Shown here: piece after piece, positions 12,273 to 36,472 of the stretch
Position numbering within the stretch: position 1 is the stretch's first letter
Layout: each line of letters opens with the position of its first letter
The notes under the pieces: generated by a model
Told to the model about the DNA's origin: nothing
Seen by the model: the letters and a program-made list of their open reading frames with translations, nothing else
The model's database searches: none
Origin: Shewanella woodyi ATCC 51908
GTDB lineage: Bacteria; Pseudomonadota; Gammaproteobacteria; Enterobacterales; Shewanellaceae
Assembly (NCBI RefSeq): GCF_000019525.1
Contig: NC_010506.1
Location: 248,001-312,000 of the forward strand
Direction of reading: 5' to 3'
Length of the DNA: 64,000 bases
Translations under genes and position numbers: made by a program

Positions 12273-13265
12273 TTAACTATCTCGCGTGGATTCGAGAAAA
12301 ATTTTCTGTCTGAAATCGCGAGGACATTCGCCGAAATAATCTTTAAAGGCTCTCGAGAAATGTGATGATGAGGTAAAACCAACGGCGTAAGATAAGCTAT
12401 CTAAACTGAAATCAAATTTACTGTCTTCTTGCAGCAATTGTCGGCTCATCATTAATCTTCTTTTTTGAATAATTTGATGAATAGTGTGCTCTTGCTTTTG
12501 AAATAATTTATAGAGATAACGCAAAGAGATCCCATGGGCATCAGCAATGTGTTGGTTTGATAGTTGATGATTTGCATAGTTGTTTTCAATGTAGCTTAGT
12601 ACTCGCTCCACTAACGCATCTTTGGAAAGCGCTTTCTTCTTCAGCTTGTTATGCATAACTGAGCAAGAATAAGCCATGGCAATCATATTCAAGAAGTTTT
12701 CAACGAGTTCTGGATGAATCGTATCTAACTCTTTGTACTCTTTAACCACTGAGAAAATGAAATTGCTGAGCACTGCACCAATACCTTCCTTGCCAGAAAG
12801 AGGGACGGCGGTATACTTTTCAGGATGGATTAAATAACGACTCAGTACGTGTTTCGGCATCTGAATAATCAGTTGATGAAACTCTTTTTCAAACGTGAGG
12901 CTATAAGGTTCACTGCTATCATAGAGTGTAAAACTGCCGGGCTGTAATATGGCTTCTCGACCATTCTGCTTAACCACTCCTTGTTGAAAAAGTTGAAAGC
13001 TCATTAAAAAATACGCTTCACTGGAGTGAGCTATTTGCTGTTTCGTCCGGGTGACAATCTGTGCTTCACCTTGAACTTCAGAGACGCTTAATAATCCAAA
13101 ATTAAGTCCCCCTCTAATCTCTCCGTGAAAGCGATCCTTGTTCAAAGGCTCACAGTCTAACTGGACAAACTCATGGCAAATTTGCTCTCTCCAATAATCA
13201 ATCCTTTCATAACTCGCAACATCCAATGTCATTTTTTTATAACCGTCGTTAATTAAAAAAGACAT
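12273..13265 (-). CDS. AraC-family regulator of the aldoxime/nitrile operon
   Basis: A 330-residue regulator with an N-terminal AraC-binding-like (cupin) domain and a C-terminal double helix-turn-helix (about residues 225-322), including NQHIADAHGISLRYLYKLFQ and VGFTSSSHFSRAFKDYFG. It lies 26 bases downstream of the aldoxime dehydratase gene on the same strand, so it is the last gene of the receptor-nitrilase-dehydratase-regulator operon. AraC regulators accompany aldoxime and nitrile genes in other bacteria, so it is probably the pathway-specific activator, sensing an aldoxime, nitrile or acid. The ligand is not deducible. Confidence 0.87.
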   Translation of the reverse strand: MSFLINDGYKKMTLDVASYERIDYWREQICHEFVQLDCEPLNKDRFHGEIRGGLNFGLLSVSEVQGEAQIVTRTKQQIAHSSEAYFLMSFQLFQQGVVKQNGREAILQPGSFTLYDSSEPYSLTFEKEFHQLIIQMPKHVLSRYLIHPEKYTAVPLSGKEGIGAVLSNFIFSVVKEYKELDTIHPELVENFLNMIAMAYSCSVMHNKLKKKALSKDALVERVLSYIENNYANHQLSNQHIADAHGISLRYLYKLFQKQEHTIHQIIQKRRLMMSRQLLQEDSKFDFSLDSLSYAVGFTSSSHFSRAFKDYFGECPRDFRQKIFLESTRDS

Positions 13266-13291
13266 AAACTCCGTACCTGCTTAAATATTAG

Positions 13292-14290
13292 TCAAATGTT
13301 AATGTAACACAACAAACCTGTTTGGCCATGGCAGTTGATATATTCAAACTCACAGTCTTGCTCGGGGATAAGTGTAACCTCATGCCATAGTTGAAGTTTT
13401 AAGTCCACATTGTACTTCTCTACCATCCCCATAAATCGGTCGAAAATGGCTATATGCGTGGGGTGACTCTTAGCCCAGTTTTCAAAAGCATAAATATCAT
13501 TGCCATATCCAAGACCAAAAGTTTGTTCGACTGAACACCAGTTTCCATCGGTTTTAGTGATAAAACGCATTGAAGCGCAATGTGTTTTGACGGGGTTGTT
13601 AGATAAGTAATCCATACCTTTTTTTAGCACAGTATGAACATTGGTTAGGTAGTACTCTTTTTCATCTTCTTCGCAATGAGTCCAATCTTGGCCGGAACGA
13701 ATCACACACATGTTCTTCGGTGGGGACAATTTTATTCTATTGCTCTTATTTTCAACATTAACTTGTAAGTGCTCCCATATACTGTTGTCATTCTTAATAT
13801 CCTGCGATGATGAACAGGGTATTCGGTCACGTGCAGCGCCCGAATAACCATGTTCCATCATGGGTCCTTCTAATGAGGGGGATAAGCGTGCAGCGCCATG
13901 AGCATTTTCTGATGAGTGTAGGGTTTCGAAACGTTGATGAGGCATAGTAAACACCTCACGCCAAACACTTATATCTCCCTCATCAAGCAGGGGAGATGCC
14001 CACCAGCTGTTAGCTGCACTTTGCTGCCACCATGTCTTGTAGTCACTGGCAAACCAATAAGCGATATAAAGATAGTTAGTGATGCCTGCTTTATCGGTAA
14101 ACATTCCTTGTTCCAATAATTTTGGCGAAAACTCTCCAGTAAATGCTTTTTTAGCCCAGTCATCTAATGGCGCAGAATGTTGACCTTGAATTGCAAATAG
14201 GCCACATACTAAGTTTTCCTCATCGGTCTTCCATAGTGATGTCCAAGCGGGAGCCGGTGGAGTCCAATTTTTAGGCATATTATTCATCAT
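13292..14290 (-). CDS. oxd: Aldoxime dehydratase, phenylacetaldoxime type (heme enzyme)
   Basis: A 332-residue member of the phenylacetaldoxime dehydratase family, heme proteins that remove water from an aldoxime to give a nitrile. Family phrases seen are EHGYSGAARDRIP, CVIRSGQDW, ENWAKSHPTHIAIF and, near the C-terminus, LWHEVTLIPEQ and FEYINCHGQTG. His303 and His321 are candidates for the heme-ligand and catalytic histidines of these motifs; an alignment is needed to assign them. Characterised members are about 350 residues, so this one is slightly short, mostly at the C-terminus. No signal peptide, so cytoplasmic. It follows the nitrilase gene by 7 bases, the same pairing known for Bacillus OxB-1. 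The substrate is predicted from the adjacent phenylacetate genes. Confidence 0.9.
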   Translation of the reverse strand: MMNNMPKNWTPPAPAWTSLWKTDEENLVCGLFAIQGQHSAPLDDWAKKAFTGEFSPKLLEQGMFTDKAGITNYLYIAYWFASDYKTWWQQSAANSWWASPLLDEGDISVWREVFTMPHQRFETLHSSENAHGAARLSPSLEGPMMEHGYSGAARDRIPCSSSQDIKNDNSIWEHLQVNVENKSNRIKLSPPKNMCVIRSGQDWTHCEEDEKEYYLTNVHTVLKKGMDYLSNNPVKTHCASMRFITKTDGNWCSVEQTFGLGYGNDIYAFENWAKSHPTHIAIFDRFMGMVEKYNVDLKLQLWHEVTLIPEQDCEFEYINCHGQTGLLCYINI

Positions 14291-14297
14291 CTATTCC

Positions 14298-15302
14298 TTA
14301 TTCGTCTGAATGCTTAGTTAATTGGGCTTCCTCAGTCTCCAGATCTTCATCTTCTAGGCAAAATTGAGAAGCTACAGGCTGCTGCGATGGGTTAAACCAT
14401 AGACGAGTCACGTCAGGTCTAGCGTAATGTCCAACAGGATCAGCGAACGATTTAGCGATATTAATTAACCCTAGATCAATGTCTGCAAATATTAAACCTT
14501 CAGCGTTTTCGGCTAATTTGATGCACATGGGGCTACCGTCAGGCGCAAATACTTGTGCATGACCACCACCTTCTTTCAGCATTTCCCCCTGTTCTTCATT
14601 TTCCACCATGAGGTTTATCATTTCTGGTGAAACAATTCCGCACGGTGCCAATACAAAGCACTGTCCTTCAGCGGCATAAACTTGTGATAGTGCATTGTTC
14701 AACTCTGGCCCTAATGAGAAAGCTTGTTGGTAACAGCTAAATGATGGCCAGCAGCCAATATGCACCTGTTCATGCTTACTGAACATGGTGTATTTGGTTA
14801 AAGGTTGTAAGTGCTCCCAACAGGACAATTGGCCTAAACGGCCTAGTTCAGTTTCAAAAACATCAAGGTCGCTGCCATCGCCTTCACCAAATAAAGTTCT
14901 TTCAACATGAGTGGGTTTCAACTTTCTTCTGGCTTGAATTAGCTCACCTTGGTTACTGAATAAAAATTGTGAGATGTACAGTGAGCCATGATCTTTCTCA
15001 CTTGCCCCAAGGCTGACAAAAATGTTGTTTATTTTGGCTGATTCTTTGATTTTATTAAAAGATTCACTATCCAAAACTAAACAGTTTTCATGATAAGTTT
15101 GTATGTATTTAAGGTTATTTATGGGGGCGTTTAGCCATATCCACCATGGGTAACCAGGGATCCAACATTCAGGAAATGCGATGAGCTTTGCATTCTCTTT
15201 AGCAGCCTTTTCAATCAATTCAATTGTTTTTTCAACCGTTGCATCTAAATCCATAAATACAGGAGAGGCTTGTACAACAGCAACTTTATATATATTTGTC
15301 AT
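14298..15302 (-). CDS. Nitrilase (arylacetonitrilase-like)
   Basis: A 334-residue member of the nitrilase branch that hydrolyses nitriles to acids and ammonia. The catalytic triad is visible: Glu45 in FPECWIPGYPWW, Lys127 in RRKLKPTHVE and Cys161 in QLSCWEHLQPL. The WEHLQPL phrase is characteristic of true nitrilases as opposed to amidases. It sits between a TonB-dependent receptor and the aldoxime dehydratase, with very short gaps, so it should convert the dehydratase product to the carboxylic acid; phenylacetonitrile to phenylacetate is the natural prediction. Confidence 0.92.
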   Translation of the reverse strand: MTNIYKVAVVQASPVFMDLDATVEKTIELIEKAAKENAKLIAFPECWIPGYPWWIWLNAPINNLKYIQTYHENCLVLDSESFNKIKESAKINNIFVSLGASEKDHGSLYISQFLFSNQGELIQARRKLKPTHVERTLFGEGDGSDLDVFETELGRLGQLSCWEHLQPLTKYTMFSKHEQVHIGCWPSFSCYQQAFSLGPELNNALSQVYAAEGQCFVLAPCGIVSPEMINLMVENEEQGEMLKEGGGHAQVFAPDGSPMCIKLAENAEGLIFADIDLGLINIAKSFADPVGHYARPDVTRLWFNPSQQPVASQFCLEDEDLETEEAQLTKHSDE

Positions 15303-15313
15303 CTCAATTCCTC

Positions 15314-17644
15314 TTAGAAAGTGTATTTAACGGCTAGGCCAAACTCTCTTGGTTTATTATAACTTGCAGAGTGAAAACCAAGGCCGAAATTAGAGTTGCC
15401 ACTTTTAATAACTCTTTTATCGGTTAGGTTATTGACGAAAGCAACGAAGCCAACACTTTCATTTAAATTATATCTAATTGAAGCATTAAACATGTCGTGG
15501 GCTTCTTGAAATAGAAATTTTGAGTTTTGAGAGTCATTAAATACATCATCGGTATACGCATAATCAACTCTGAAAGCGATATCGCTTTCATCGAAGTAAA
15601 GACTGTAATCTAAACCAATGTGTAATGAGTTCTCAGGTGTATTTACTAGCTTAGCGGACTTATCTAAGGTCAATGATAAACCTTCAACGGGATTGATGTT
15701 ATTGTATGCTGCATCAATGTAGCCGTAGCCAATATCAAGAATGAGATCGTCTGTGATTAAGGCGGTTATCTCAAGCTCTACGCCTTTAATGTCAATCTCT
15801 CCAGCGTTGGCTGTAATTGGCCCGCCGAGTTTGTCAAAAAAGGTGACTTGTGCATCCTGATAGTCTGAATAGAACACCGCGCCGTTGACTCGGATACGCT
15901 CATTATCACTTTGCCATTTGATTCCTATTTCATGTGCATCTAAGGTTTCTGGTTCAAAGGTACGAGGTGCGGCTACCGATTCTACGTAGCGTAAAACAAA
16001 CCCTCCGCTTTTGAATCCTTGAGAGAAGCTGTAATACAGAAGAGTGCCGTCATCTAATATGGCATCAACACCAAGCTTAAATGTTGTCTGCTCAAAATTA
16101 TCAGAAATAGAGCCACTGCCATTGCCCACTAATGGTGAGAGTCCGGGGCGAAATGTACCTGTTTCATCAACAGCACCAGGGAAAAACGGTAACGGATTGC
16201 CTTGAATGTCAGCAGCAAGGTACTGGGTATAATCAAATTGCTTTTTATCTAGTGTGTGTCTAACACCTGCCGTGACTGAGAATGTGTCGTTAATATCCCA
16301 AGTTGCTTGTAAATATTCAGCAAGACTAGAGTTCTCAACGTCGGCATAGTTATTTAACCCAGCAGGGAAACCAGCGCTTAAATCTGGGGTTGGTAGGTGC
16401 AGTGGAACAAACACATTATCAGTACCGCTTTCATCAAAGTAATAGACCCCAGCAATGTACTTGATTTGGTCATCCATAGCGGTGCCCAAGAACTGAAGCT
16501 CATGACTAATCTGCTTATGATAATAATCTGGGTTTGAAATCTCGGTAATTTGAAATGGCGTGTTATCGGCATCTGCATGGAATGCAGCCTTCGTTCTACG
16601 ATATGCTGCAGTGTATTTAAGGTCAAAATTGTCTTGATGAGTATTGGCGACAAATGAGGCTCCATCTACCGTTGCGCTGCTGCCATTGTTGTATGTTCCA
16701 TAGGATACGTCTTTATCATCTTTGGTTATGTATTTGTCTAAGTCTTTAAGTCCTGCAACGATTGCCGCATCTGGTGATAATGTTGGATAGGTCGCCAGTG
16801 CCCAACCTATTGTGCCTGCACCAGGGGTAAAGCCCACGGCGACATTAGCTGCACTCTCTTCGTCTATATCTGAATGGTCAAAGGAGAGTTGAAAATTCCA
16901 CTCATCATTGGGTTCGTAATATAAGGCTCCACGAAACGCAAGTTGGTCTTCATTACCGAGTTCATCGCCTATGAGCGGGCGTTCAACAAAGCCATCTCTG
17001 CGTTTACTTGAAAAGGCAAATGTGGACAGTAATTCGTCTGTAAAAGGAATATCAATTGAGCCACGAACATCAGTTCGATTAAAGCTACCCAAAGTGAGAT
17101 CTAAACGGCCAGCAAGCTCATCATATGGCTTACGCGTAGTAATATTAATAGCCCCACCAATACTATTACGGCCAAATAGGGTGCCTTGTGGTCCTCTCAG
17201 CACCTCTATTCTCTCAACATCAAGGAGATCTAATACGCCACCGATAGAACGAGAGACATATACGCCATCAATATACGTCCCTACACCTGGATCTGTGGTT
17301 AAACTGAAGTCTGTATTGCCGATCCCGCGTATGAAAACGGCCGCACTGGTTGATGAGCCACCTATTGGAGATGAGGTATCAAACACTAAATTGGGGGTGA
17401 AATTTTCTATTTCTGCAATATTGCCAACTTGCATTTTTTCAAGGCCATCGGCGGTAAATGCGGTCACTGCGATAGGTGTTTCTTGTAGTGATTCAACTCT
17501 TTTTTGCGCGGTCACCGTAATCACTTCGAGTGTTTGGCTTTTCTCTTTTTTATCACTTTCTTCAGAAAATACAGGCGCATTGAATAACAAAGACAGTACA
17601 ATAATGCTGTTGCTATAGTTATTATATTTTACTTTTTCGTTCAT
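15314..17644 (-). CDS. TonB-dependent outer-membrane receptor, aldoxime operon
   Basis: A 776-residue outer-membrane receptor. A signal peptide is followed by a TonB box within LEVITVTAQKR, a plug domain with RIEVLRGPQGTLFGRNSIGG, and a barrel ending in VKYTF. It is the first gene of the operon with nitrilase, aldoxime dehydratase and AraC regulator, so it probably imports the substrate rather than a siderophore. This iron-complex-receptor-like group is often used for organic substrates in marine gammaproteobacteria. Substrate identity is an inference from context. Confidence 0.88.
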   Translation of the reverse strand: MNEKVKYNNYSNSIIVLSLLFNAPVFSEESDKKEKSQTLEVITVTAQKRVESLQETPIAVTAFTADGLEKMQVGNIAEIENFTPNLVFDTSSPIGGSSTSAAVFIRGIGNTDFSLTTDPGVGTYIDGVYVSRSIGGVLDLLDVERIEVLRGPQGTLFGRNSIGGAINITTRKPYDELAGRLDLTLGSFNRTDVRGSIDIPFTDELLSTFAFSSKRRDGFVERPLIGDELGNEDQLAFRGALYYEPNDEWNFQLSFDHSDIDEESAANVAVGFTPGAGTIGWALATYPTLSPDAAIVAGLKDLDKYITKDDKDVSYGTYNNGSSATVDGASFVANTHQDNFDLKYTAAYRRTKAAFHADADNTPFQITEISNPDYYHKQISHELQFLGTAMDDQIKYIAGVYYFDESGTDNVFVPLHLPTPDLSAGFPAGLNNYADVENSSLAEYLQATWDINDTFSVTAGVRHTLDKKQFDYTQYLAADIQGNPLPFFPGAVDETGTFRPGLSPLVGNGSGSISDNFEQTTFKLGVDAILDDGTLLYYSFSQGFKSGGFVLRYVESVAAPRTFEPETLDAHEIGIKWQSDNERIRVNGAVFYSDYQDAQVTFFDKLGGPITANAGEIDIKGVELEITALITDDLILDIGYGYIDAAYNNINPVEGLSLTLDKSAKLVNTPENSLHIGLDYSLYFDESDIAFRVDYAYTDDVFNDSQNSKFLFQEAHDMFNASIRYNLNESVGFVAFVNNLTDKRVIKSGNSNFGLGFHSASYNKPREFGLAVKYTF

Positions 17645-17853: not shown

Positions 17854-19944
17854 TTATTTTAAGTTACTTAGGGTGACTTCAGGCCAAATATCTGCACTGT
17901 ATTGGTGTCGTAATAATTGCAGTTTTTCATCAATGTCTGCACAGCCTAATTTTGCGCCCCAGTACATAGGTCCTCCTTTAAAGCGAGGAAAGCCATAGCC
18001 ATGTAGCCAGATGATATCGAGTAAACTGATATCATTTACAATTCCCTCATCAATGATAAGCAAACCTTCGCTCACCAGAGCTAACATCGCCCTTTGTTGG
18101 ATTGCCTCGGCTGTTAACCGATGTGGGATTATTGAGAGTTTTTTTGCTTCGTTATCCACTAATAACTGAGCTTCTTGTGACTCTACCTTCTCACCAGAGG
18201 CTAAATATTGGTAAAAGCCTGCCTGAGTTTTTCGGCCCAAACGTCCATTTTCAACCATGGATGCAGAGGGCCTAAAATAACCAAGATCATAGGGTTTATC
18301 AGCTTGTTTTGCTCTTGCTTGATACCCAATATCTATCCCACTGAGATCTTGTACAGTTAAAGGACCCATGGCCATTCCAAAAGAGGTCATGGCTTCATCT
18401 ATCGCCACTATGCTGTTACCTTCGAGTAACATCTGTTGAATTTCGCGTCCATAGCGAGTGTACATGCGATTGGCTGCAAATCCAAAGCATACGCCTACTT
18501 CAACGGGGTATTTTCTAAGTTTTACACCGAGTGCCAACATGGTTTTAATCACGTCATCGGCAGTGTTCTCTGCTCTAACTATTTCGATTAATTTCATTAC
18601 ATGGGCTGGACTAAAAAAGTGCAAACCGACTACTTGATCAGGCCTACTGGTCACTTTGGCAATGCTATTAATATCCAGATATGAGGTGTTAGTCGCTAGA
18701 ATCGCGCTATCTTTGCAGTGTTGATCAAGAGCTTTGAAAATGATTTTTTTTACTTCTAAATCTTCAAATGCAGCCTCAACGACCAGATCGCAAGGTGCTA
18801 AACGGTCGTAGACAGTACTTCCTTTTACTAGCTGCATCTTGTCATCTAGATCTTGCTCAGTCATGTGTCCTTTTGTTATTTTTGACTGGTAGCCTTTGCG
18901 TAAATTATCCATGCCTCGTAGCAAGGCTTCTTCGGTTTGCTCTATCCATATCAAGTCCATGCCAGCATCGATAAAACAGCGAGCGATCCCTACACCCATG
19001 TTACCAGCGCCCACGACTCCGACGGTATTTATAGTTCTGGTGGATGATGTTGAAGTTGCCAGTTTTTGGTTCTTTTTCTCGGTAAAAAAAGCATACCGAA
19101 GTGCTTTGGCTTGGTCTGAGTCGCGCAATTGTAAAAATAAACGACGTTGACGTTTCAGTGCATGTTCAAAAGATAAACCTAAGCTATATATTGCTTTGAT
19201 TTCATTGAGTAATAGTGCAGGTGCTTCAACTCCTTTTGCGAGACGTTTAACTCTTTTCTCTGTGCTATCCCAATCAATATATTGTCCTTGAATTGAGAAG
19301 TCGGCCTCAGTGTTTTGCTTGCTTTCTGTTAGCGTCAGCTGTCGACAAAAGCTTAAGGCTTGCTCTGTGAGATCACCTTTGTGCACCAGCTTATGAATTA
19401 ACGCCGTATTTAGCCACTCATCCGCATTTTGAGGTTTGCCTGTACACGCAAATTCGATGGCAGCTTTAACGCCAATTAAATTCATTAGCCTCAAGGTGCC
19501 ACCCGCACCAGGAATAATACCTAAATTCACTTCAGGCAATCCCAGTTTAGTCTTGCTGACTGCTAGACGGTAATCGCAAGCTAGGGCGAGTTCCAACCCT
19601 CCACCGAGTACTGTGCCATGTAGAGCGGCAATAACGGGTTTTGGGAAGCGGACTATAGTGGCTATCAACTCAGGAAGGTGTGGCTCAAGTGGCTCTGTGT
19701 CCATCTCTTTTATATCGGCACCTGCTACAAAAGTACGACCTGTGCAGGTGAGTAAAACTGAGTGTAAATCTTGTGAAGCCAGGGATTGGAATAGAATCAA
19801 TAACTCAGCTCTAAGTTGTTGAGAAATCGCATTGACTGGAGGAGAGTTAATTTCAATGACGGCTAAGGTATTATTATCGGTGACGTTAAGTTGAATACCG
19901 GTTTCTATGCACAGATAACGGACATGACAAAGAGGATTATTCAT
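17854..19944 (-). CDS. Fused enoyl-CoA hydratase / 3-hydroxyacyl-CoA dehydrogenase (probable PaaF-PaaH substitute)
   Basis: A 696-residue two-domain beta-oxidation enzyme. The N-terminal third is a crotonase fold (VAGADIKEMD, HGTVLGGGLELALACDYR, LGIIPGAGGTLRL). The rest is a 3-hydroxyacyl-CoA dehydrogenase with the NAD-binding motif GVVGAGNMGVGIA, LVVEAAFED and ATNTSYLDI, plus the C-terminal dimerisation repeats. No separate paaF or paaH is present, so this protein probably does both hydration and oxidation of the dehydroadipyl/hydroxyadipyl-CoA intermediates. Peroxisomal or FadJ-type fatty-acid oxidation is an alternative role. It overlaps the EthD-like gene by 8 bases. Confidence 0.85.
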   Translation of the reverse strand: MNNPLCHVRYLCIETGIQLNVTDNNTLAVIEINSPPVNAISQQLRAELLILFQSLASQDLHSVLLTCTGRTFVAGADIKEMDTEPLEPHLPELIATIVRFPKPVIAALHGTVLGGGLELALACDYRLAVSKTKLGLPEVNLGIIPGAGGTLRLMNLIGVKAAIEFACTGKPQNADEWLNTALIHKLVHKGDLTEQALSFCRQLTLTESKQNTEADFSIQGQYIDWDSTEKRVKRLAKGVEAPALLLNEIKAIYSLGLSFEHALKRQRRLFLQLRDSDQAKALRYAFFTEKKNQKLATSTSSTRTINTVGVVGAGNMGVGIARCFIDAGMDLIWIEQTEEALLRGMDNLRKGYQSKITKGHMTEQDLDDKMQLVKGSTVYDRLAPCDLVVEAAFEDLEVKKIIFKALDQHCKDSAILATNTSYLDINSIAKVTSRPDQVVGLHFFSPAHVMKLIEIVRAENTADDVIKTMLALGVKLRKYPVEVGVCFGFAANRMYTRYGREIQQMLLEGNSIVAIDEAMTSFGMAMGPLTVQDLSGIDIGYQARAKQADKPYDLGYFRPSASMVENGRLGRKTQAGFYQYLASGEKVESQEAQLLVDNEAKKLSIIPHRLTAEAIQQRAMLALVSEGLLIIDEGIVNDISLLDIIWLHGYGFPRFKGGPMYWGAKLGCADIDEKLQLLRHQYSADIWPEVTLSNLK

Positions 19945-20278
19945 GTGAACCTCCCATTATTGTTATCTCACTAACAACGATAATCGGAGTGACATTGGTA
20001 AAATTGATAATGTCAGCAAGTACGATAGAACCAGCTTGTTTGAATGCGTTTTTCATCTCTTGTAGGTTGGTAAAATAGAGGTAACCAATCGCAAATACGG
20101 GGGGTTCGCCTAAGCCTATTTGTGGGATGTCCAGTTCCCACCTAATGAGGCCGTGGGGCAGATAATTAATCTCGACGAGCGCCATATGTCGCTCGCGATA
20201 ATAGTCCATATCAAACTGTTCAGTGGGATTATTGTTTTTTGTTTTAGGGTAACTAATTGCTATACGGATCATATTCAC
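19937..20278 (-). CDS. EthD-domain protein (dimeric alpha-beta barrel)
   Basis: A 113-residue protein with the EthD/ferredoxin-like barrel pattern: an N-terminal strand IRIAISYP, the YYRERHMALV helix with its His, and a C-terminal strand ending IIVVSEI. EthD proteins often accompany catabolic gene clusters, but their roles vary (accessory, isomerase or degradation of reactive products). It lies between paaX and the fused hydratase/dehydrogenase and overlaps the latter, so it is co-expressed. The function is unknown here. Confidence 0.72.
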   Translation of the reverse strand: MNMIRIAISYPKTKNNNPTEQFDMDYYRERHMALVEINYLPHGLIRWELDIPQIGLGEPPVFAIGYLYFTNLQEMKNAFKQAGSIVLADIINFTNVTPIIVVSEITIMGGSHE

Positions 20279-20301
20279 CTCAATCCGTATTCGCTTTAGG
20301 T

Positions 20302-22992: not shown

Positions 22993-23011
22993 AATCTTGT
23001 TATCCTAGTGA

Positions 23012-23758: not shown

Positions 23759-23771
23759 AATTTCACCCTTA

Positions 23772-24074: not shown

Positions 24075-24087
24075 GTTCATTCCTAAT

Positions 24088-26830: not shown

Positions 26831-26838
26831 AACACCAC

Positions 26839-27627: not shown

Positions 27628-27713
27628 TGTTTGTTCCTTGTTCACTGTGTCATGATTTGATAGTCTGCCTTGAGTCACCTAAATAGAAGGCTCACAAAAT
27701 TGAGGAAAACTAG
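27628..27713. promoter_or_regulatory. Divergent promoter spacer paaG / paaY
   Basis: An 86-base spacer between the leftward paaG and rightward paaY. It carries the ribosome binding sites of both (aagga for paaG, gagga for paaY). It is too short to resolve separate promoters, and I see no clear palindrome. Confidence 0.45.
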
Positions 27714-28313: not shown

Positions 28314-28339
28314 TGATGCTTTTTTAGGTAAGCTCTGCA

Positions 28340-30391
28340 TTACTGTGCAGCGTTCTTGTACGCGACTAATGTTAAAATGTCGTAGAGGGCTACCACTTCA
28401 TTATCTTGATTCACCACTTTGACATCCCAAACAACCACACCTGCTGGGTGAGCATCGTCAGGCTTGGTTTTTTTGTAGATCTTGCGCTTTACTGTCAACG
28501 AGACTTCAATAGTGTCACCGATCCCTACAGGTTGAATGAAACGTAAACTATCCAAGCCGTAATTGGCCAACACTGGTCCTGGAGCTGGTTCGACAAACAT
28601 GCCAGCAGCTGCTGAGATTAGGAAGTAGCCATGGGCCACTCGCTTGCCAAATAACGAATCAGCCGCGGCAGTTTCATCAAAATGCGCATAGAAATGATCA
28701 CCTGACAGACAGCCAAAATTGACGATATCTGCTTCGGTTACTGTGCGTCTATGGGTCGTTAGGGATTCACCGATGTTGAGTTCTTCGAAATACTTTTTAA
28801 AGGGATGCTGTAAACTGGTAGTGGTATCTGCGCCAGGGACATATTCATTCGTTACTGCTTGTAAGGTATTGGGTGAACCCTGAATGGCAGTGCGCTGCAT
28901 GTAGTGCTTCACTGCTCTAATGCCACCAAGTTCTTCTCCTCCCCCAGCACGACCAGGCCCACCATGGACCATAGATGCGAGTGGCGAACCATGACCCGTC
29001 GATTCTTTCATGCAATCACGATTATTCACTAGAATACGACCGTTGTAACAGGCCATGCCATAAACTAATGTGCGAATGTTGTCGTTGTCATAGCTGAACA
29101 CCGATGACACTAAGCTACCTTTTCCTTTACCCACAATTTCAATAGCTTGTTCAATACTGTCGTAGGGCATCAAGGTCGAAACGGGGCCAAAAGCTTCTAT
29201 GTCATGTACCTGTTGACTGGTAAGGGGGGTATCACAACGGAGTAAGGTGGGAGGAAAGAACGATCCCTTGTCATAGTCGATCCCAATGGTATTCATTGAG
29301 TCCCATCCACCATGAATAACATCACAGCTGAATAGCAGTTGATCCACTGCACTTTGCACGTCTGCACATTGTGCTTGGTTTACTAACGCACCCATTTTGA
29401 CACCGTCATTAGTAGGGTCACCCACTAGGGTCGATTGAATTCTTTTACTGAGCGCATCACCCACGCAATCCATCATGGCACTGGGCACTAATACTCGACG
29501 TATTGCAGTACACTTTTGTCCAGCTTTAGTTATCATTTCACGATGTACTTCTTTAATGAATGCATCGAATTCTGGCATATCCTGTTGCACATCGGGTGCT
29601 AAAATACAGGCATTTAATGAATCTGCTTCCATATTAAATGGTATATTTTTGCTGAGGATATTGTCATGGCTACGAAGCATTTTCCCAGTTTTAGCTGAAC
29701 CGGTAAAAGTCACTACATCTTGTTCTGTGAGATGATCTAATAGATCACCTACACCACCGCAGATAAGCTGTACACAGCCTTCAGGTAGGATTTTGCTAGC
29801 GACAATCTCTTTCACAACAGCTTCAGCAACGTAGCAAGTGGCAGTGGCGGGTTTGACGATAACAGGCATGCCAGCTAGCAAGCTTGGGGCTATTTTTTCC
29901 AGCATTCCCCACACTGGGAAATTGAACGCATTAATATGAACTGATACGCCCATTTTAGGCATCAAAATATGTTGGCCGATAAACGAACCATTAACTGATA
30001 GCGGTTCTACTTTCCCTTCAACGATAAACTTTTCATTGACCAGTTCACGTCGAACCATACCTGAATAGCTAAACAGAGTACTAATTCCGCCTTCAACATC
30101 AATCCAACTATCAGAACGGGTAGCGCCTGTCAGGTAGGACAGTTGATAGAAATCTTCTTTTTTCCTCATCAAATGAGTTGCGAGACTTTTGAGCATTTCA
30201 GCTCTTTCATGCAGGGTAAATTGCCTTAATTTATTTCCTGCAATGAGACGGCCATATGCCAGAGCATTATCAAAACCAGATTCCATGCTTGACGTTGTAG
30301 CTACTGTTTCACCAGTAAATGCATTTTTAGATGTAACACACCTTCCAGTTCCACTAACCCAACCACCGCAAACATAACTTTTTATTTTCAT
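28340..30391 (-). CDS. paaZ: Oxepin-CoA hydrolase / 3-oxo-5,6-dehydrosuberyl-CoA semialdehyde dehydrogenase PaaZ
   Basis: A 683-residue fusion protein that opens the oxepin ring and oxidises the aldehyde. The N-terminal aldehyde dehydrogenase (about 1-520) has VTFTGSAKTG, the catalytic cysteine in AGQKCTAIRR and FGPVSTLMPY. The C-terminal MaoC-like hydratase (about 540-680) has GDHFYAHFDE and RVAHGYFLIS. Length equals E. coli PaaZ (681). It is divergent from paaK and convergent with paaY. Confidence 0.95.
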   Translation of the reverse strand: MKIKSYVCGGWVSGTGRCVTSKNAFTGETVATTSSMESGFDNALAYGRLIAGNKLRQFTLHERAEMLKSLATHLMRKKEDFYQLSYLTGATRSDSWIDVEGGISTLFSYSGMVRRELVNEKFIVEGKVEPLSVNGSFIGQHILMPKMGVSVHINAFNFPVWGMLEKIAPSLLAGMPVIVKPATATCYVAEAVVKEIVASKILPEGCVQLICGGVGDLLDHLTEQDVVTFTGSAKTGKMLRSHDNILSKNIPFNMEADSLNACILAPDVQQDMPEFDAFIKEVHREMITKAGQKCTAIRRVLVPSAMMDCVGDALSKRIQSTLVGDPTNDGVKMGALVNQAQCADVQSAVDQLLFSCDVIHGGWDSMNTIGIDYDKGSFFPPTLLRCDTPLTSQQVHDIEAFGPVSTLMPYDSIEQAIEIVGKGKGSLVSSVFSYDNDNIRTLVYGMACYNGRILVNNRDCMKESTGHGSPLASMVHGGPGRAGGGEELGGIRAVKHYMQRTAIQGSPNTLQAVTNEYVPGADTTTSLQHPFKKYFEELNIGESLTTHRRTVTEADIVNFGCLSGDHFYAHFDETAAADSLFGKRVAHGYFLISAAAGMFVEPAPGPVLANYGLDSLRFIQPVGIGDTIEVSLTVKRKIYKKTKPDDAHPAGVVVWDVKVVNQDNEVVALYDILTLVAYKNAAQ

Positions 30392-30593
30392 AAACTTAAC
30401 TCCAGAAGTGTGTATTTAACAATATTTAATATACACAGTTTTGTTAAAAGTGACACATAAATGTTTCACTTTTTGTAAAAAATGAATTACTTTGATTTGT
30501 GAGCGGTGATTATAAAATAAGCGAGAAAAGCTCAATATGTAGCCAGTATGTTATATTGACTATGAACAAAAACTCTAAGAATCAGGTATTAAA
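30392..30593. promoter_or_regulatory. Divergent paaZ / paaK promoter with inverted repeats
   Basis: A 202-base AT-rich divergent spacer. Two inverted repeats stand out: tgtgtat (30409-30415) with atacaca (30431-30437), and aaaagtga (30446-30453) with tcactttt (30466-30473). Both are candidate operators for PaaX or another regulator of the island. The aaagtg half-site is also present upstream of the aldoxime operon and near paaA. Confidence 0.5.
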
Positions 30594-31895
30594 ATGACGA
30601 ACGAATCGACCAATAACAGAGTTGGAGTGGGATTGCATTCAATAGAAAGTGCAAGTATTGATGAGCTTAGAGCTTTGCAATTTGAAAGATTAAAAAAAAC
30701 GCTTAACCATGCTTATACCAATTCTCCTGCGTATAAACGAAAGTTTGACGAAGCGGGAGTTCATCCTGATGACTTTAATCATCTCGATGATTTGCGAAAG
30801 TTTCCATTTACGACCAAACAAGATTTAAGAGATAACTATCCTTTTGGTTTTTTCGCCATGCCAATGGATGACATTGTTCGAATTCATGCATCAAGTGGTA
30901 CAACAGGTCAGCCAACAGTCGTTGGCTACACTCAAGAAGATATACACACTTGGGCCGACATTGTAGCCCGTTCAGTCTATGCCGCTGGTGGTCGTAAGAA
31001 AGATAAAGTACATATCTCCTATGGTTATGGCTTGTTTACCGGTGGTCTAGGTGCTCACTACGGTGCTGAACGACTTGGCTGTACGGTGATCCCGATGTCT
31101 GGTGGGCAAACAGCAAAACAAGTTCAACTGATCCGTGATTTCAACCCTGACATCATCATGGTCACTCCCTCTTACATGCTAAACATTGCAGATGAAATTG
31201 AACGTCAAGGTATCGATCCTAAGTCACTGGCACTGAGATGCGGTATTTTTGGTGCAGAGCCATGGACCGATGCAATGCGAAGTAACATAGAGCAAAGACT
31301 AGGTATTGATGCTGTGGATATTTACGGTTTGTCGGAAGTGATGGGACCCGGCGTCGCGCAAGAATGCATTGAAAGCAAAGATGGCCCAACGATATGGGAA
31401 GATCACTTTTATCCTGAAATTATTAATCCTGAAACCGGTGAAATTGTTGAAGATGGTGAGCCTGGCGAATTAGTCTTTACCAGTTTAACAAAACAAGCCA
31501 TGCCAATTATCCGTTATAGAACTCGTGATCTCACTTCACTTCTTGCCTCTACTTCAAGATCAATGAGACGGATGGATAAAATTACCGGAAGAAGTGATGA
31601 CATGTTGATCATTAGAGGGGTGAATGTATTTCCATCTCAAATCGAAGAGCAATTATTATCTATTGAGGGGTTGAGCCCACATTACTTGGTTGAAGTGGCA
31701 AAGATGGGGCATATGGACTATCTCACGGTGAAAGTTGAGCGTTCGCTGGATCAGCAGTGTAACAAGGAGCAAGCCAAGTTACTTGAAAGTAAGATTAAGA
31801 GCGTGATCGGAATTTCCAGCAAAGTGGTGCTCCTTGAGCCTCAAACCATTGCGCGCTCTGAAGGTAAAGCTTGCAGAGTTACTGATTTACGATAA
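30594..31895 (+). CDS. paaK: Phenylacetate-CoA ligase PaaK
   Basis: A 433-residue AMP-forming ligase that makes phenylacetyl-CoA, the pathway entry and probable inducer. The P-loop is ASSGTTGQPTVVGYT; further motifs are YGLSEVMGPGVA, YRTRDLT and the hinge DKITGRSDDMLIIRGVNVFPSQ. Length fits PaaK (about 430-440). It is divergent from paaZ and followed after 25 bases by a LuxR-type regulator. Confidence 0.95.
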   Translation: MTNESTNNRVGVGLHSIESASIDELRALQFERLKKTLNHAYTNSPAYKRKFDEAGVHPDDFNHLDDLRKFPFTTKQDLRDNYPFGFFAMPMDDIVRIHASSGTTGQPTVVGYTQEDIHTWADIVARSVYAAGGRKKDKVHISYGYGLFTGGLGAHYGAERLGCTVIPMSGGQTAKQVQLIRDFNPDIIMVTPSYMLNIADEIERQGIDPKSLALRCGIFGAEPWTDAMRSNIEQRLGIDAVDIYGLSEVMGPGVAQECIESKDGPTIWEDHFYPEIINPETGEIVEDGEPGELVFTSLTKQAMPIIRYRTRDLTSLLASTSRSMRRMDKITGRSDDMLIIRGVNVFPSQIEEQLLSIEGLSPHYLVEVAKMGHMDYLTVKVERSLDQQCNKEQAKLLESKIKSVIGISSKVVLLEPQTIARSEGKACRVTDLR

Positions 31896-31920
31896 CAAGT
31901 TAAGTTCTAAGGAGGTCACC

Positions 31921-32637
31921 ATGTATTTATCCCAAAAAGAGCTTTGTACTATGATGGATCTGGTGAGTTTCACCTTACAGCACAATACGACTTTAGGCAG
32001 TCGTCAACTTCTGCTGGATAAGCTTATGGAGATGTTTCGAGCTGATTATGGTGCCTCCTGTTGTTGGAATCCAAATGAAAAGTATTATCAAGAAGGGGTA
32101 TTTAGCAATATGTCCTTGGATAATATATCAAAGTATAATGATTACTATCAGTTCCATGACCCTATTACCAATAAGCTTAGGCAATTTAGACGCGCGGTTG
32201 CAGTGAGTGAGGTTATTTCAAGAGATCAGTTGATCCAAACTGAATTTTACAACGACTTTTTACAGCGCGACGGGCTTAGTTTTGGGGTCAATTTGCATAT
32301 CTACTGTGGGCAAGAGCATGTTTTTGATGTTCGATTATGGAGAAGTCAGCAGCAGGGAGATTTTGATGTAAAGCACCTTAATCAACTCGATTTACTGTTA
32401 CCTTATTTACGGGCTATGGGTGAGAGAGAGCCATTGAAAGAGTCACTCAGTTTTAATCTTTTTACCCAAAGAGAACTTGAAGTGATCAGCCAGATTAAGT
32501 CAGGGATGAATGATAAAAATATGGCCAGAACAATGAATGTATCGGTTACAACGCTTCGATCTCACATTCGCTCCATATACAAGAAAGCGGACGTTCACAG
32601 TCGCACGGAACTTATCTCTAAATTAGCTCCCAATTAG
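31921..32637 (+). CDS. LuxR-family transcriptional regulator
   Basis: A 238-residue regulator. The C-terminal helix-turn-helix is typical of LuxR/FixJ (FTQRELEVISQIKSGMNDKN, ending IYKKADVHSRTELISKL); the N-terminal 170 residues look like a GAF- or autoinducer-fold sensor but not a phosphorylation receiver. The ATG at 31921 follows a perfect taaggaggt site, so the longer frame overlapping paaK is rejected. It lies between paaK and the amidase/receptor pair and could regulate them. The ligand is unknown. Confidence 0.85.
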   Translation: MYLSQKELCTMMDLVSFTLQHNTTLGSRQLLLDKLMEMFRADYGASCCWNPNEKYYQEGVFSNMSLDNISKYNDYYQFHDPITNKLRQFRRAVAVSEVISRDQLIQTEFYNDFLQRDGLSFGVNLHIYCGQEHVFDVRLWRSQQQGDFDVKHLNQLDLLLPYLRAMGEREPLKESLSFNLFTQRELEVISQIKSGMNDKNMARTMNVSVTTLRSHIRSIYKKADVHSRTELISKLAPN

Positions 32638-32889
32638 ACAATTTGTGCATCTCTAAATCCATTATGCTTTCATTCATCATGATGAGTTACCTTGCTAATA
32701 GGCTGCTCTTTTTATTGCCCTAAGCTTACCTAAATAACCCTAACCATTGAGTATTGGTCAGTTATCCCGATCATCATAATTAACGATTTTAATCACGTTA
32801 ATCAGCATTTTCTCATCAATCTTGACGATATATTTCATTTCTCTTAATTAAGATACTTATTAAGTATGCAGAAGCTAAGAGTAAGCGCC
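32638..32889 (+). promoter_or_regulatory. Upstream region of the amidase-receptor pair
   Basis: About 250 bases with no gene. An inverted repeat attaacg (32779-32785) with cgttaat (32796-32802) is a possible operator. No clear terminator for the upstream LuxR gene was seen, so read-through from paaK is possible. Confidence 0.35.
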
Positions 32890-34257
32890 ATGACAATAAA
32901 AGATGAGACCAAAAAACAGATTCTACAACTTCATCAGAAAGTAGACTTTCAATACGGACGGTCTACAGGTTTTTCAGATTATCACGCATATCTGTATCAG
33001 AATAAACAGGCTTCACATAAGCAAGTAGACAACTTGTCTGAAGGCGATATTAACAATCAAGTACTTTACGGCATGACGATCGCAGTAAAAGATAATATCG
33101 AAGTGGCTGGCATGCCAAATACGCTGGGTAACAAAGCATTGGCTGGCCATATTCCTCAACACGATGCCTGCATCATTACTCGATTAAAAGAAGCGGGGGC
33201 TGTGATCAATGGTAAAGCCAACATGCATGAGTTGGCACTGGGTGTCACCAACATCAACCCCTCCTATGGTCATGCGTTAAATGCTTACAACCCTGAGTAC
33301 TTTGCTGGTGGCAGCAGTGGCGGCACTGCAGTAGCTGTGGCACTGGGATTGGCGGATGCTGGGATTGGTACTGACACCGGTGGTTCATCACGCATACCTG
33401 CAGCACTCAATGGCATTGTGGGTTTTAGGCCGACAACCGGACGCTATCCAAATGATGGATTAGGTCTGATCTCTAAAACCAGAGACACGGCTGGTCCCAT
33501 GGCTAAAGATGTCGATACTCTTGCGCGACTTGATGCAGTGCTAGCGGGGGAACCTTCGATAGATTCGCTGCCATCTTTCCCACCTAAAAAGTTAAGGCTC
33601 GGGATCCCTCGTGCTTATTTTTACGGTAATACAGAGCCGGCTGTACTCGCGGCTGTTGAGGACGTGCTTCAGGCGCTTGCAAAAGCTGGGGTGACACTAA
33701 TAGAGGTGGATCCTCAAGGCATTGAAGCACTAAACCAAAGCATTAGCTTTCCGGTAGTGCTTTATGAAGCGAAGCAACACATTCAAGATTATGTAGAGAA
33801 AGCCTTACCAGGCACAGCGATTGAAGACTTTGCAGCACAGATATGCAGTGGAGATGTCAAAAATCTTGTCGATAGTATTTTTAATCAACCTATTCCAGAG
33901 CCTATGTATCAGGAAGCTATCAACTCTTTCAGGCCCAAGTTACAAAGCTTATACCAAGACTACTTTGATAAGCATCGCCTTGATGCCGTTATCTTTCCTG
34001 CGACTCCGTTAACCGCTCAAAAAATCACGAATGATAACGATCTTGTCATACTTAATGGCAGTGAAGAACCCACCTTTAGTACTTATATCAGAAATGCTGA
34101 TCCTGCCAGTAATGCGGGTATTCCAGGATTAGTGATCCCCATCGGTTTCAACCCTGAAGGATTACCCATTTCACTTGAGATTGATGGCCCCGCCGGCTCT
34201 GACCGGCAAGTGATCACCATTGGGAAACTGATTGAAACAATAATTAAAAATTTATAA
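32890..34257 (+). CDS. Amidase-signature enzyme, indoleacetamide-hydrolase-like
   Basis: A protein of about 455 residues with the Ser-cisSer-Lys triad: the lysine in MTIAVKDNIE, the cis-serine in FAGGSSGGTAVAV and the nucleophile in GTDTGGSSRIPAALNG. The overall text resembles indoleacetamide hydrolases and broad aryl-amidases. In this island it could hydrolyse arylacetamides, which nitrilases release as by-products, to acids. The start at 32890 is preferred over 32866 by resemblance to the family start; neither has a strong site. The receptor gene follows after 25 bases. Confidence 0.82.
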   Translation: MTIKDETKKQILQLHQKVDFQYGRSTGFSDYHAYLYQNKQASHKQVDNLSEGDINNQVLYGMTIAVKDNIEVAGMPNTLGNKALAGHIPQHDACIITRLKEAGAVINGKANMHELALGVTNINPSYGHALNAYNPEYFAGGSSGGTAVAVALGLADAGIGTDTGGSSRIPAALNGIVGFRPTTGRYPNDGLGLISKTRDTAGPMAKDVDTLARLDAVLAGEPSIDSLPSFPPKKLRLGIPRAYFYGNTEPAVLAAVEDVLQALAKAGVTLIEVDPQGIEALNQSISFPVVLYEAKQHIQDYVEKALPGTAIEDFAAQICSGDVKNLVDSIFNQPIPEPMYQEAINSFRPKLQSLYQDYFDKHRLDAVIFPATPLTAQKITNDNDLVILNGSEEPTFSTYIRNADPASNAGIPGLVIPIGFNPEGLPISLEIDGPAGSDRQVITIGKLIETIIKNL

Positions 34258-34282
34258 CAAACTATAAAAATTGGAGATGGAA

Positions 34283-36472
34283 ATGAAGACCTCAAAAATT
34301 AGTCAGCTCATTTTATTGAGCTACCTTTTACCAAGCGCTGTGTGGGCTGCTGACATTGAAGAAAATGAAAAAATAGATGCCAGCAAACTAGAAGTGATTA
34401 CGGTTACAGCTCAAAGGCGAGGAGAAAATATTCAGAAAGTGCCTGTTGCTGTCACAGCAATGAATGCTGAGATGTTAGAGAAACAAGATGTACATGATCT
34501 CAATACTATCGCCACGCGAGTGCCGGGATTATCTTTCAGTCCATTTGCACCAGGGCAAAATATTATTAGCCTTCGAGGGGCCTCCTCAAATGACGATGGC
34601 GCTGGCACCGACAACTCAGTTGCAGTCTTTGTTGATGATGTCTATTTAGGTCGAGTTTCCAACGTTAATCCTGAGATGTTTGATATTGAACGCGTCGAAG
34701 TACTGCGTGGTCCACAAGGTACTTTGTATGGTAAAAACACCATAGGTGGCGCGATTAATATTATTTCAAAACTGCCTAGTTTGGATGAGCTTGATGCAAA
34801 GCTTAGGCTCAATATTGGTAACTATGGTCGTCGTGATGTGGCTGGGTACATTAACGGTCCACTCGGTGACAACATCGCCGCGAAATTGAGTTTCTCAAGT
34901 CGTAAAAATGATGGTTGGGTTGATAATGTTACGTTAAACAGTAAGCAAAAAGATAATGATGTGTTTGCTGGTCGAGCTCAGCTGTTATATGAAGGCGATA
35001 ACTTTCAAGCGCTATTCAGCGGTGACTATTCCAAACTTGATGTGACTGACATGGCGCGTACTCCAGTAGATACAGGTGCAAAAGGTGATCCTGCCGTGTG
35101 GTCGCCTGCCTATGTTGCCGCTTGTAAAGAGGGAGCTCCATTTTGTGCAGCTGGCGCTGTTGATGGTTATGCTAAGCAAAAAGCCTATGGCGTTAGCGCT
35201 AAGTTAACTTGGGATCTCGATTTAGGTGAGTTGATTTCAATCAGTGCTTATCGTGACAGTGAATCTGACTGGAATATGGATGCAACAGGTTCACCAGCCC
35301 TCGCGCTTATCGATGATATTATTGATAATAGTGACCAGTTCTCGCAAGAGTTCAGGTGGGTAGGGCAAACTGACAGCTTTAATTATGTCGCTGGTGCTTG
35401 GTACATGAACGAGAATACTGATCGTAGCGAATGCTTTGATTTAAGTCTTGATACCGATTGTTCAACAGGAATGGATGGTAGTGATTTCTACCACCAAGTC
35501 AATGAAACCAACAGCTACGCGTTATTTGGCCAATTTGATTGGAAATTCACAACAGATTGGATACTGACTGTAGGTGGTCGATATTCCTATGAAACCAAAG
35601 AGATTGATAACGTCGCAAAGGCGGGTGATTTTGTGATTATCAATGAGAATTTTGGTATTGACAGTCCGGTGACTTTAAAGGAAAGTTGGGGGGCATTTAC
35701 GCCTAAAGTAGCGCTTAAATATACTGTTTCTGATGACACCACGGCTTACTTAAGCTTTGCAAAAGGTTTTAAAAGTGGTGGATTTGCTGCAGCACCGCAG
35801 TCGTTAGCTGAAACAAAACCGCTGGAACCAGAAGAAGCGACCAATTTTGAATTTGGTATAAAGTCAGACATTAGTGATACCTTTCGTCTCAACACCACTA
35901 TTTTCCATACAGACTACAAAAATCTGCAAATTCAAAGTTTTGGTCCTAGAAGTAGTGGCGAAGATTTTGGCGTTTTCAACACCTTCAATGCCGGTGATGC
36001 AAAAATTGATGGTATTGAATTAGAGTTCACTTGGCTACCTACTGATAACCTCAAGCTCTATGGTTTTTATGGCTACATGGACAGTGAATTTGTCGATACC
36101 GTGGTTCCTAACTCTGCTTACCCAAATCAGTCCGGTCAGGAGATGCTTAGAACGCCTAAGAATAAATACTCAATCAACTTAGAGCACAATATTGACCTCG
36201 ATTCTGGCGATTACTTCACGACAAACCTAAATTATCGTTTCACTGATGAGCAGCGTGGAGAGCTTGAACCTTATGCCATTCAACCTGCATTTAAGTTATT
36301 GGATGCCAGCTTTACATGGCATTCGGCAAACGATAATTGGGAAGTCTCAATATGGGGAAAAAACCTCACTGAAGAGGTGTACATTACTCATGTCTACACA
36401 GTGGCTTCAAGCGTTGTTGCCGTATATGGCGAACCAAGAATGTATGGTGTTTCAGTCTCATGGAGCATGTAG
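34283..36472 (+). CDS. TonB-dependent outer-membrane receptor, amidase operon
   Basis: A 729-residue receptor with a signal peptide, TonB box in LEVITVTAQRR, plug (VEVLRGPQGTLYGKNTIGGA) and a C-terminal barrel ending VSVSWSM. Ending in methionine rather than phenylalanine is a small oddity. The ATG at 34283 has ggag six bases upstream; earlier in-frame starts at 34271 and 34277 overlap that site. It is downstream of the amidase and probably co-transcribed, suggesting import of an amide, nitrile or related substrate. Confidence 0.88.
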   Translation: MKTSKISQLILLSYLLPSAVWAADIEENEKIDASKLEVITVTAQRRGENIQKVPVAVTAMNAEMLEKQDVHDLNTIATRVPGLSFSPFAPGQNIISLRGASSNDDGAGTDNSVAVFVDDVYLGRVSNVNPEMFDIERVEVLRGPQGTLYGKNTIGGAINIISKLPSLDELDAKLRLNIGNYGRRDVAGYINGPLGDNIAAKLSFSSRKNDGWVDNVTLNSKQKDNDVFAGRAQLLYEGDNFQALFSGDYSKLDVTDMARTPVDTGAKGDPAVWSPAYVAACKEGAPFCAAGAVDGYAKQKAYGVSAKLTWDLDLGELISISAYRDSESDWNMDATGSPALALIDDIIDNSDQFSQEFRWVGQTDSFNYVAGAWYMNENTDRSECFDLSLDTDCSTGMDGSDFYHQVNETNSYALFGQFDWKFTTDWILTVGGRYSYETKEIDNVAKAGDFVIINENFGIDSPVTLKESWGAFTPKVALKYTVSDDTTAYLSFAKGFKSGGFAAAPQSLAETKPLEPEEATNFEFGIKSDISDTFRLNTTIFHTDYKNLQIQSFGPRSSGEDFGVFNTFNAGDAKIDGIELEFTWLPTDNLKLYGFYGYMDSEFVDTVVPNSAYPNQSGQEMLRTPKNKYSINLEHNIDLDSGDYFTTNLNYRFTDEQRGELEPYAIQPAFKLLDASFTWHSANDNWEVSIWGKNLTEEVYITHVYTVASSVVAVYGEPRMYGVSVSWSM

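Follow-up and report, generated by a model that had tools for sequence, protein, structure and literature searches.

Genes of the oxd and paa blocks

The 64,000-nt stretch considered here, referred to as the window, covers positions 248,001 to 312,000 (forward strand) of the Shewanella woodyi ATCC 51908 genome, which is a single contig (NC_010506.1) of 5,935,403 bases. Within it, 24 kb (12273–36472 in window coordinates, used throughout) carry two sets of genes side by side: a block including a predicted heme aldoxime dehydratase (Oxd) and a nitrilase, and a core of phenylacetate degradation (paa) genes. A first-pass annotation of this DNA had listed oxd, a nitrilase, an amidase, paa genes, and two TonB-dependent receptors together; by Pfam and NCBIfam scans, all are present near the coordinates it gave, in open frames. 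To these can be added paaY on the plus strand, a bifunctional enzyme as a presumed stand-in for PaaF and PaaH, a resemblance of the AraC-type regulator to FeaR (below the family cut-off), and a LuxR-type regulator following paaK.

Reading downward from 17644 on the minus strand, the oxd block consists of TonB-dependent receptor 1 (TBDR1), nitrilase (nit), oxd, and the AraC-type regulator (araC), with gaps of 11, 7, and 26 bases; with such short gaps, the four genes are probably a single transcript. Upstream on the same strand are genes for a bifunctional hydratase/dehydrogenase and an EthD-type protein, then paaX, E, D, C, B, A, J, I, G, and Z. Divergent from paaZ are paaK, the LuxR-type regulator, an indoleacetamide-hydrolase-like amidase, and TonB-dependent receptor 2 (TBDR2).

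The Oxd (13292–14290, minus strand; Dehydratase_hem, 260.9 bits) is predicted to convert aldoximes to nitriles. Its closest solved structure is the phenylacetaldoxime dehydratase 7f2y at 33% identity, which we take to be OxdB, the Bacillus sp. OxB-1 enzyme; identity to OxdRE is 30%. Five of five OxdRE positions compared, whose active-site roles are assumed here, are kept (E143, R178, S219, H299, and H320, corresponding to E122, R156, S199, H279, and H303 in the window protein). The earlier description of this gene as phenylacetaldoxime-dehydratase-like names a family; with identity to the solved enzymes compared at only 30–33%, the sequence alone does not give the substrate.

The nitrilase (14298–15302, minus strand; CN_hydrolase), separated from oxd by the 7-base gap, is predicted to yield carboxylate and ammonia from nitriles, with perhaps some amide. 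The full Glu/Lys/Cys triad attributed to it is indeed there (E45/K127/C161). Its closest solved structure is 6zby, NitA (393 bits, 55% identity), other nitrilases scoring 334 bits or less; the structure search gave just the name NitA, which we presume to be the arylacetonitrilase of Pseudomonas fluorescens EBC191. A pocket residue was also considered as a guide to substrate and set aside: the one highlighted for arylacetonitrilase is, in the available portion of the source (PMC7660301), conserved across the whole nitrilase family. TBDR1 (15314–17644, minus strand; Plug and TonB_dep_Rec domains) is presumed to mediate outer-membrane uptake of the block's substrate, and the last gene of the block (12273–13265, minus strand) encodes the AraC-family regulator, with AraC_binding_2 and HTH_18 domains and 163.7 bits against the FeaR cut-off of 199. 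In its heme Oxd residues, adjacent Glu-Lys-Cys nitrilase, and AraC-type neighbour, the block has the makeup of an Oxd and nitrilase cluster.

The paa set of PaaK, PaaABCDE, PaaG, PaaZ, and PaaJ is complete, with PaaE slightly under its family cut-off and the others over theirs. The phenylacetate-CoA ligase PaaK (30594–31895; TIGR02155, 710.6 bits) is on the plus strand. On the minus strand are the ring-cleaving bifunctional enzyme PaaZ (28340–30391; TIGR02278, 972 bits), the isomerase PaaG (26839–27678; TIGR02280, 348.6 bits), the thioesterase PaaI (26354–26830; TIGR02286, 118.2 of 118.9 bits), and the thiolase PaaJ (25155–26357; TIGR02430 and NF006551); these are followed by the phenylacetyl-CoA epoxidase, with its catalytic subunit PaaA (24088–25041; TIGR02156, 513.6 bits), PaaB (23772–24122; PF06243, 111 bits), PaaC (23012–23884; TIGR02158; the true start is probably further inside the open reading frame), PaaD (22465–22992; TIGR02159), and the reductase PaaE (21324–22397; TIGR02160, 389.9 of 420.8 bits). 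Next are the PaaX repressor (20302–21237; PaaX domains; TIGR02277, 247 of 264.6 bits) and a small EthD-family protein (19937–20278; TIGR02118, 47 bits against a cut-off of 30.5; Pfam EthD below cut-off).

The last gene of this series encodes the bifunctional enoyl-CoA hydratase/3-hydroxyacyl-CoA dehydrogenase (17854–19944, minus strand), which, judging from its domains, may replace separate PaaF and PaaH enzymes. It scores 193.7 bits, far under the PaaH cut-off of 669.4, and no separate PaaF or PaaH gene was found within the cluster, the rest of the genome not having been searched for them. The hydratase/dehydrogenase follows paaX and the EthD-family gene in four cores: those of the window genome, S. 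corallii (G020; comparison genomes are numbered G), a further Shewanella (G074), and Ningiella ruwaisensis (G1347). It does not follow paaX in G831, which has an M20 peptidase gene there, or in the paaX stretches of G855 and G885. The EthD-family gene lies between paaX and the hydratase/dehydrogenase gene in the same four.

PaaY (27714–28313, plus strand; Hexapep) is encoded antisense between paaG and paaZ. A minus-strand open reading frame in the same place (27675–28340) has no NCBIfam family match and was taken as a shadow. The antisense placement recurs in the S. corallii, G074, and Ningiella cores, and paaY is opposite to paaG in G736, G831, and G855 too; such a conserved arrangement may be regulatory.

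To the right, on the plus strand, are the LuxR-type regulator (31915–32637; GerE), with a homologue (53% identity) after paaK in S. corallii; the amidase (32866–34257; NF005688, 492.7 of 532 bits), presumably an arylacetamide hydrolase; and TBDR2 (34271–36472), whose S. corallii homologue, 79% identical, is likewise next to an amidase gene. The amidase has Lys-Ser-Ser motifs, on our assumption of what these should be. In S. corallii the amidase and TBDR2 homologues are on the paa side, after an insert of genes for an MFS transporter, an FAD-binding_3 protein, a metallo-beta-lactamase-fold protein, and a MarR regulator, and are therefore grouped with paa there, not with oxd. The Ningiella and G074 stretches read include no TBDR2 match and no close amidase.

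Between paaZ and paaK is a candidate operator, the inverted repeat AAAGTGACACAT / AAAGTGAAACAT (30447–30472), and a weaker candidate pair precedes paaA (25080–25126, with sites at 25080 and 25115). The motif was guessed from four paaZ–paaK gaps. As a single site it has 14 matches in the window, with 13.6 expected; single matches being no commoner than chance, only the paired sites are worth mention. Scans for consensus promoters and terminators were uninformative, giving fewer sites than shuffled sequence.

Distribution of the oxd block and the ends of the paa core

Among 129 Shewanella genomes, 2 matched Oxd (PF13816) and 3 matched PaaA. Wider samples, which overlap, gave Oxd in 3 of 394 genomes of the order (one a partial match below cut-off), 12 of 369 of the class (5 full-length, the window genome included), 17 of 398 of the phylum (13 full-length, including the window genome and one from the class search), and 4 of 325 of the family of G383, one of these already counted; one further search added none. 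The 21 Oxd genomes discussed below are those with full-length Oxd, G129 and G1243 (Pseudocolwellia agarivorans) being counted as one. Twelve with partial PF13816 matches were left out (G484, G494, G578, G602, G651, G705, G727, G768, G963, G989, G997, and G1089), of which G705 and G727 exceeded the Pfam cut-off. Fourteen control genomes gave no match, and the sensitivity of the search rests on positives alone.

The DNA beside oxd was read in all 21 genomes by tblastn with window proteins, mostly to about 10 kb per side, three flanks (G736, G805, G831) being shortened by contig ends. A paa core is nearby in the window genome and in Ningiella, and was not seen in the other 19. A search for paaA in 19 of the 21 (all but G1215 and G1347, the latter read directly) found it in 13; of the six searched genomes with a block of the close type (about 45–64% identical), G383 and Pseudocolwellia are without a match. 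In the 11 paaA-positive genomes of that search besides the window genome and S. corallii, oxd and paaA are either on separate contigs or over 1 Mb from each other; in S. corallii the block is on contig C10 and the core on C2.

An AraC gene is beside oxd in 8 of 8 close-type modules seen, and a TonB receptor is directly before nit in all seven with that side visible (window genome, S. corallii, G383, G1215, Ningiella, and two modules in Pseudocolwellia; it is cut off in G736 and G831). The receptors of S. corallii, G383, and G1215 are 61–65% identical to TBDR1, the others 26–34%. The two TonB receptor-nitrilase-oxd modules of Pseudocolwellia agarivorans, in which no paaA was found, encode Oxds 51% and 30% identical to that of the window. 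Seven more distant genomes (G1169, G1043, G1029, G950, G1138, G1174, G885) have AraC, a nitrilase of 50–57% identity, and an Oxd of about 30% together, so the AraC-nitrilase-Oxd trio is an old, known kind of unit. Beside oxd in G855 is a 33% identical nitrilase; G966, G1060, G1100, and G1153 have an amidase-like gene (27–35%) near oxd and no such nitrilase nearby; and in G805 oxd is alone at a contig end.

Oxd genes were also found on 35 plasmid records, 12 of them typed as conjugative and 21 from Bradyrhizobium, Pantoea, Agrobacterium, or Erwinia; in the Acinetobacter and Erwinia records read, nitrilase and regulator genes adjoin. A Phenol_MetA_deg protein, of outer-membrane type, follows oxd in the two plasmid relatives tested by Pfam (Acinetobacter and Erwinia), of five plasmid stretches read. 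An outer-membrane protein would thus often be part of the oxd block, which fits an uptake role.

The order paaK | paaZ (Y) G I J A B C D E X - EthD - hydratase/dehydrogenase is common to the window genome, S. corallii, G074, and Ningiella; what differs is the genes at its ends. In the window genome the hydratase/dehydrogenase end bears the oxd block. Ningiella has this block at the end marked by paaK, whose strand it shares (paaK, TonB receptor, nit, oxd, araC); the oxd-paa junction is not, then, peculiar to the window genome, a possibility that had been considered. S. corallii has at its hydratase/dehydrogenase end an aldehyde dehydrogenase and amine-dehydrogenase cassette (Me-amine-dh H and L chains, MauE, and a thioredoxin-like protein), homologues of which are at the paaK end in G074. 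Each kind of cassette is therefore seen at each end of the core. The S. corallii cassette (L014 1434–11517) is accompanied by a TonB receptor, an AraC regulator, and a histone-deacetylase-fold protein; no TonB receptor match was found in the 20-kb G074 stretch. In G074 the aldehyde dehydrogenase homologue beside paaK matches in three frames (L042 10254–11670) and the hydratase/dehydrogenase over two (L043 4077–6004), through sequencing error or gene decay. A PF06433 search for amine dehydrogenase found none in the window genome, and its control genomes were also unmatched, so that absence is not shown.

The two cassettes differ in chemistry, that with amine dehydrogenase being without oxd or nitrilase, and dock at the same two ends of the same core layout (L014 and L042). 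Aromatic amine dehydrogenase and aldehyde dehydrogenase convert phenylethylamine to phenylacetate; the amine-dehydrogenase cassette would act on aromatic amines, and would be another likely phenylacetate source. With each type at each end, and both expected to make phenylacetate, the simplest reading is that the end cassettes feed the paa core.

The window genome and Ningiella are sisters in a 14-row Oxd tree (98/98) and, weakly, in a 13-row AraC tree (88/90). Database matches to Oxd at E ≤ 0.001 numbered 351, and among the matches listed 119 besides the window's own are 45–62% identical; the few named members of this branch are from genera (Shewanella, Ningiella, Haliea, Agarilytica) that we take to be marine. 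In an 85-row Oxd tree (79 of 120 listed matches, the window's own, three locus Oxds, and two outgroups) the window Oxd groups with two metagenomic proteins (100/99), and that of Ningiella with six others (90/74). A single inherited island was rejected as the general case: block and core are apart in S. corallii, and the block occurs elsewhere in genomes with no paaA match. Judging from the trees, the paa linkage may have arisen either once or twice.

Relationship between the two blocks

Two catabolic blocks joined end to end, the oxd front block making phenylacetate and the paa back block degrading it, are in our judgement the probable explanation of the locus. TBDR1 would carry an arylacetaldoxime or arylacetonitrile across the outer membrane, Oxd would dehydrate aldoxime to nitrile, and the nitrilase would hydrolyse the nitrile to phenylacetate and ammonia, the AraC regulator presumably inducing the block. 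Flux would then pass to the back block (PaaK, PaaABCDE, PaaG, PaaZ, the hydratase/dehydrogenase, and PaaJ, with PaaX, PaaY, and PaaI), in which phenylacetate would proceed through phenylacetyl-CoA, its epoxide, and oxepin-CoA to ring opening, and by beta-oxidation to acetyl-CoA and succinyl-CoA. Arylacetamide formed as a nitrilase by-product would be salvaged by the amidase, which may serve outside arylacetamides as well.

More tentatively, the paa core of this layout could be a two-ended hub, repeatedly fitted with interchangeable phenylacetate-making cassettes, either of aldoxime/nitrile type, with their own TonB receptor, or of amine-dehydrogenase type; we regard this extension as possible, if somewhat doubtful. 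Cassettes are at the ends of four of four cores of the exact layout and none of six others, which is suggestive but not a statistic. If the hub exists, arylacetaldoximes and arylacetonitriles would be a real carbon and nitrogen source for marine bacteria, with active TonB uptake and some marine origin of these compounds. It would also suggest a rule, that whatever docks at the ends of this core makes phenylacetate, by which substrates could be assigned to uncharacterised cassettes.

A number of observations weigh against the two-block explanation. Of the 21 oxd genomes, 19 show no paa genes beside oxd, and the paaA search was negative in 6 of its 19, so that phenylacetate degradation is not the obligate fate of the block's product; identity of the window Oxd to the solved enzymes compared is low, as noted above. 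In 12 more distant oxd loci, each with several kb or more of flank on both sides, neither nit nor oxd has a TonB receptor beside it. Neither cassette was matched in the stretches read of six other paa cores (G736, G831, G805, G855, G1169, G885). Of the cores other than the four of shared layout, G736 and G831 are the most closely related by PaaA; the G736 contig is only 8 kb, and the G831 core, in a stretch without paaZ, paaK, or hydratase/dehydrogenase, is flanked by dus, mscS, glycosidase, patatin, phosphorylase, Bax1-I, and CpeT-type genes and, on the other side, by the M20 peptidase gene. The nitrilase tree, unlike those of Oxd and AraC, does not pair the window genome with Ningiella, and in the 85-row tree their Oxd groups join with modest support (89/84), with other sequences of unread context between; independent joining in two genomes is therefore not proved. 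Finally, the candidate operator pair was not found in the 209 bases before TBDR1 or in the 228 before the amidase.

This last result led to rejection of PaaX control of the oxd block, a common operator, by the guessed motif, being missing from the TBDR1 gap. With its own AraC regulator and no paa-type motif before TBDR1, the oxd block can be argued, weakly, to form one regulon and the paa core another. The first-pass proposal that the whole island is one catabolic system is not borne out, given the separate AraC gene, the failure to find a shared operator, the many oxd genomes without adjacent paa, and the association of amidase and TBDR2 with paa in S. corallii. The route it proposed, from aldoxime to central metabolism, is plausible: the gene set lies in one 24-kb stretch, and comparison adds some support, the block adjoining a core of like layout at its hydratase/dehydrogenase end here and at its paaK end in Ningiella, with the amine-dehydrogenase cassette at these ends in two other Shewanella.

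The same observations could be accounted for by chance, if the oxd block had been transferred horizontally to a place beside the paa core and handled some other aldoxime or nitrile (aliphatic, indolic, or halogenated), the resulting acid being excreted or used elsewhere. The scarcity of paa genes in the oxd flanks read and of paaA itself, the block's own regulator and the lack of a common operator, an Oxd similarity that does not fix the substrate, and close kin of the core without any such end cassette would all agree with this. However, such a block adjoins such a core in another genome too, there at the opposite end, the same core ends elsewhere hold another cassette expected to make phenylacetate, and the nitrilase is 55% identical to NitA; a fortuitous neighbourhood is accordingly thought unlikely.

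A different role for the front block is also conceivable: it might detoxify aldoximes or nitriles, or make arylacetates (phenylacetate, indole-3-acetate) as signals to algae or other partners, with the paa core merely clearing the excess. In its favour, the amidase is indoleacetamide-hydrolase-like, and the available parts of a review deal chiefly with what Oxd and nitrilase do between plants and bacteria, counting indole-3-acetate as one product (PMC8955678); we ourselves extend this to algae and to detoxification. No route is known by which the Paa enzymes would take free indole-3-acetate onward. Since the TonB receptor in the block and the complete degradation set next to it fit use as food better, and the window proteins scanned (not every open reading frame was) included none recognisable as aldoxime-forming, signalling or detoxification seems quite improbable, and two joined catabolic blocks remain the preferred reading.

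Related systems and flanking genes

The front block is of a known kind. In Bacillus sp. OxB-1, AraC, nitrilase, and Oxd genes are together, and phenylacetaldoxime, which induces their expression, is converted to phenylacetate by Oxd and nitrilase (PMC4342420); an AraC/NitR, nitrilase, and Oxd cluster is also described in Bradyrhizobium, in the parts of the review available (PMC8955678). These clusters have the same three kinds of gene side by side as the window block. The latter differs in including a TonB-dependent receptor and in abutting a paa core, neither of which is mentioned for them in the accessible text of the two sources, and its Oxd is only 33% identical to 7f2y. For P. fluorescens EBC191, the same portion of the review gives a putative indoleacetamide (IAM)-hydrolase gene upstream of nit, with mandelate-pathway genes and no oxd nearby, in contrast to the oxd and paa genes of the window (PMC8955678). 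Pseudomonas sp. DY-1 is, from the accessible account, of nitrile hydratase type, unlike the window, the linkage of its two gene sets not being stated there.

The paa core resembles the PaaX-type pathway of gammaproteobacteria in its core enzymes and in PaaX, PaaY, and PaaI, and differs in its fused hydratase/dehydrogenase for PaaF and PaaH, antisense paaY, and exchangeable end cassettes. A 2026 survey of 6,536 genomes places Shewanella, in the text available, in a stable, mostly PaaX-regulated marine/environmental subclade; no word beginning with "nitril" or "aldoxime" occurs in its main text as accessible (PMC13186573). The open-access literature, judged mainly by titles and abstracts and with subscription journals outside its scope, yielded no account of oxd linked to paa genes. 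Oxd in Shewanella is not wholly new to print, going by the visible part of a 2016 paper on heme-binding barrels, OxdA included, which has Shewanella woodyi among the species of a figure (PMC4835899); the entry most likely refers to the window Oxd. The AraC-nitrilase-Oxd trio and the paa pathway are already known; what is credibly new is their combination, with the TonB uptake component and exchangeable end cassettes, without amounting to a new type of system.

The Oxd bacteria in the available part of the review are mostly from soil and plants (PMC8955678). The branch around the window protein is often accompanied by a TonB receptor and is twice joined to phenylacetate degradation. Found in marine genera with these associations, it suggests that a pool of aldoximes or nitriles in the sea has been overlooked.

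GC content was tried as a mark of separate origin and found unusable: values for the oxd block (40–42%) match those at both ends of the paa core, which are 40.6–42.6% on the paaK-amidase-TBDR2 side and 41–43% from paaX to the hydratase/dehydrogenase, and the sole higher part is paaZ to paaE (44.5–46%). To the left of the island is menDHCE. Directly to its right (37123–42634) are genes for a DmsE-type decaheme cytochrome, an MtrB/PioB porin, and a molybdopterin oxidoreductase, a cluster of extracellular-respiration type. The lowest-GC part of the window (46001–48000, 35.6%) lies between a LysR regulator gene and one for an NrfD-type membrane subunit.

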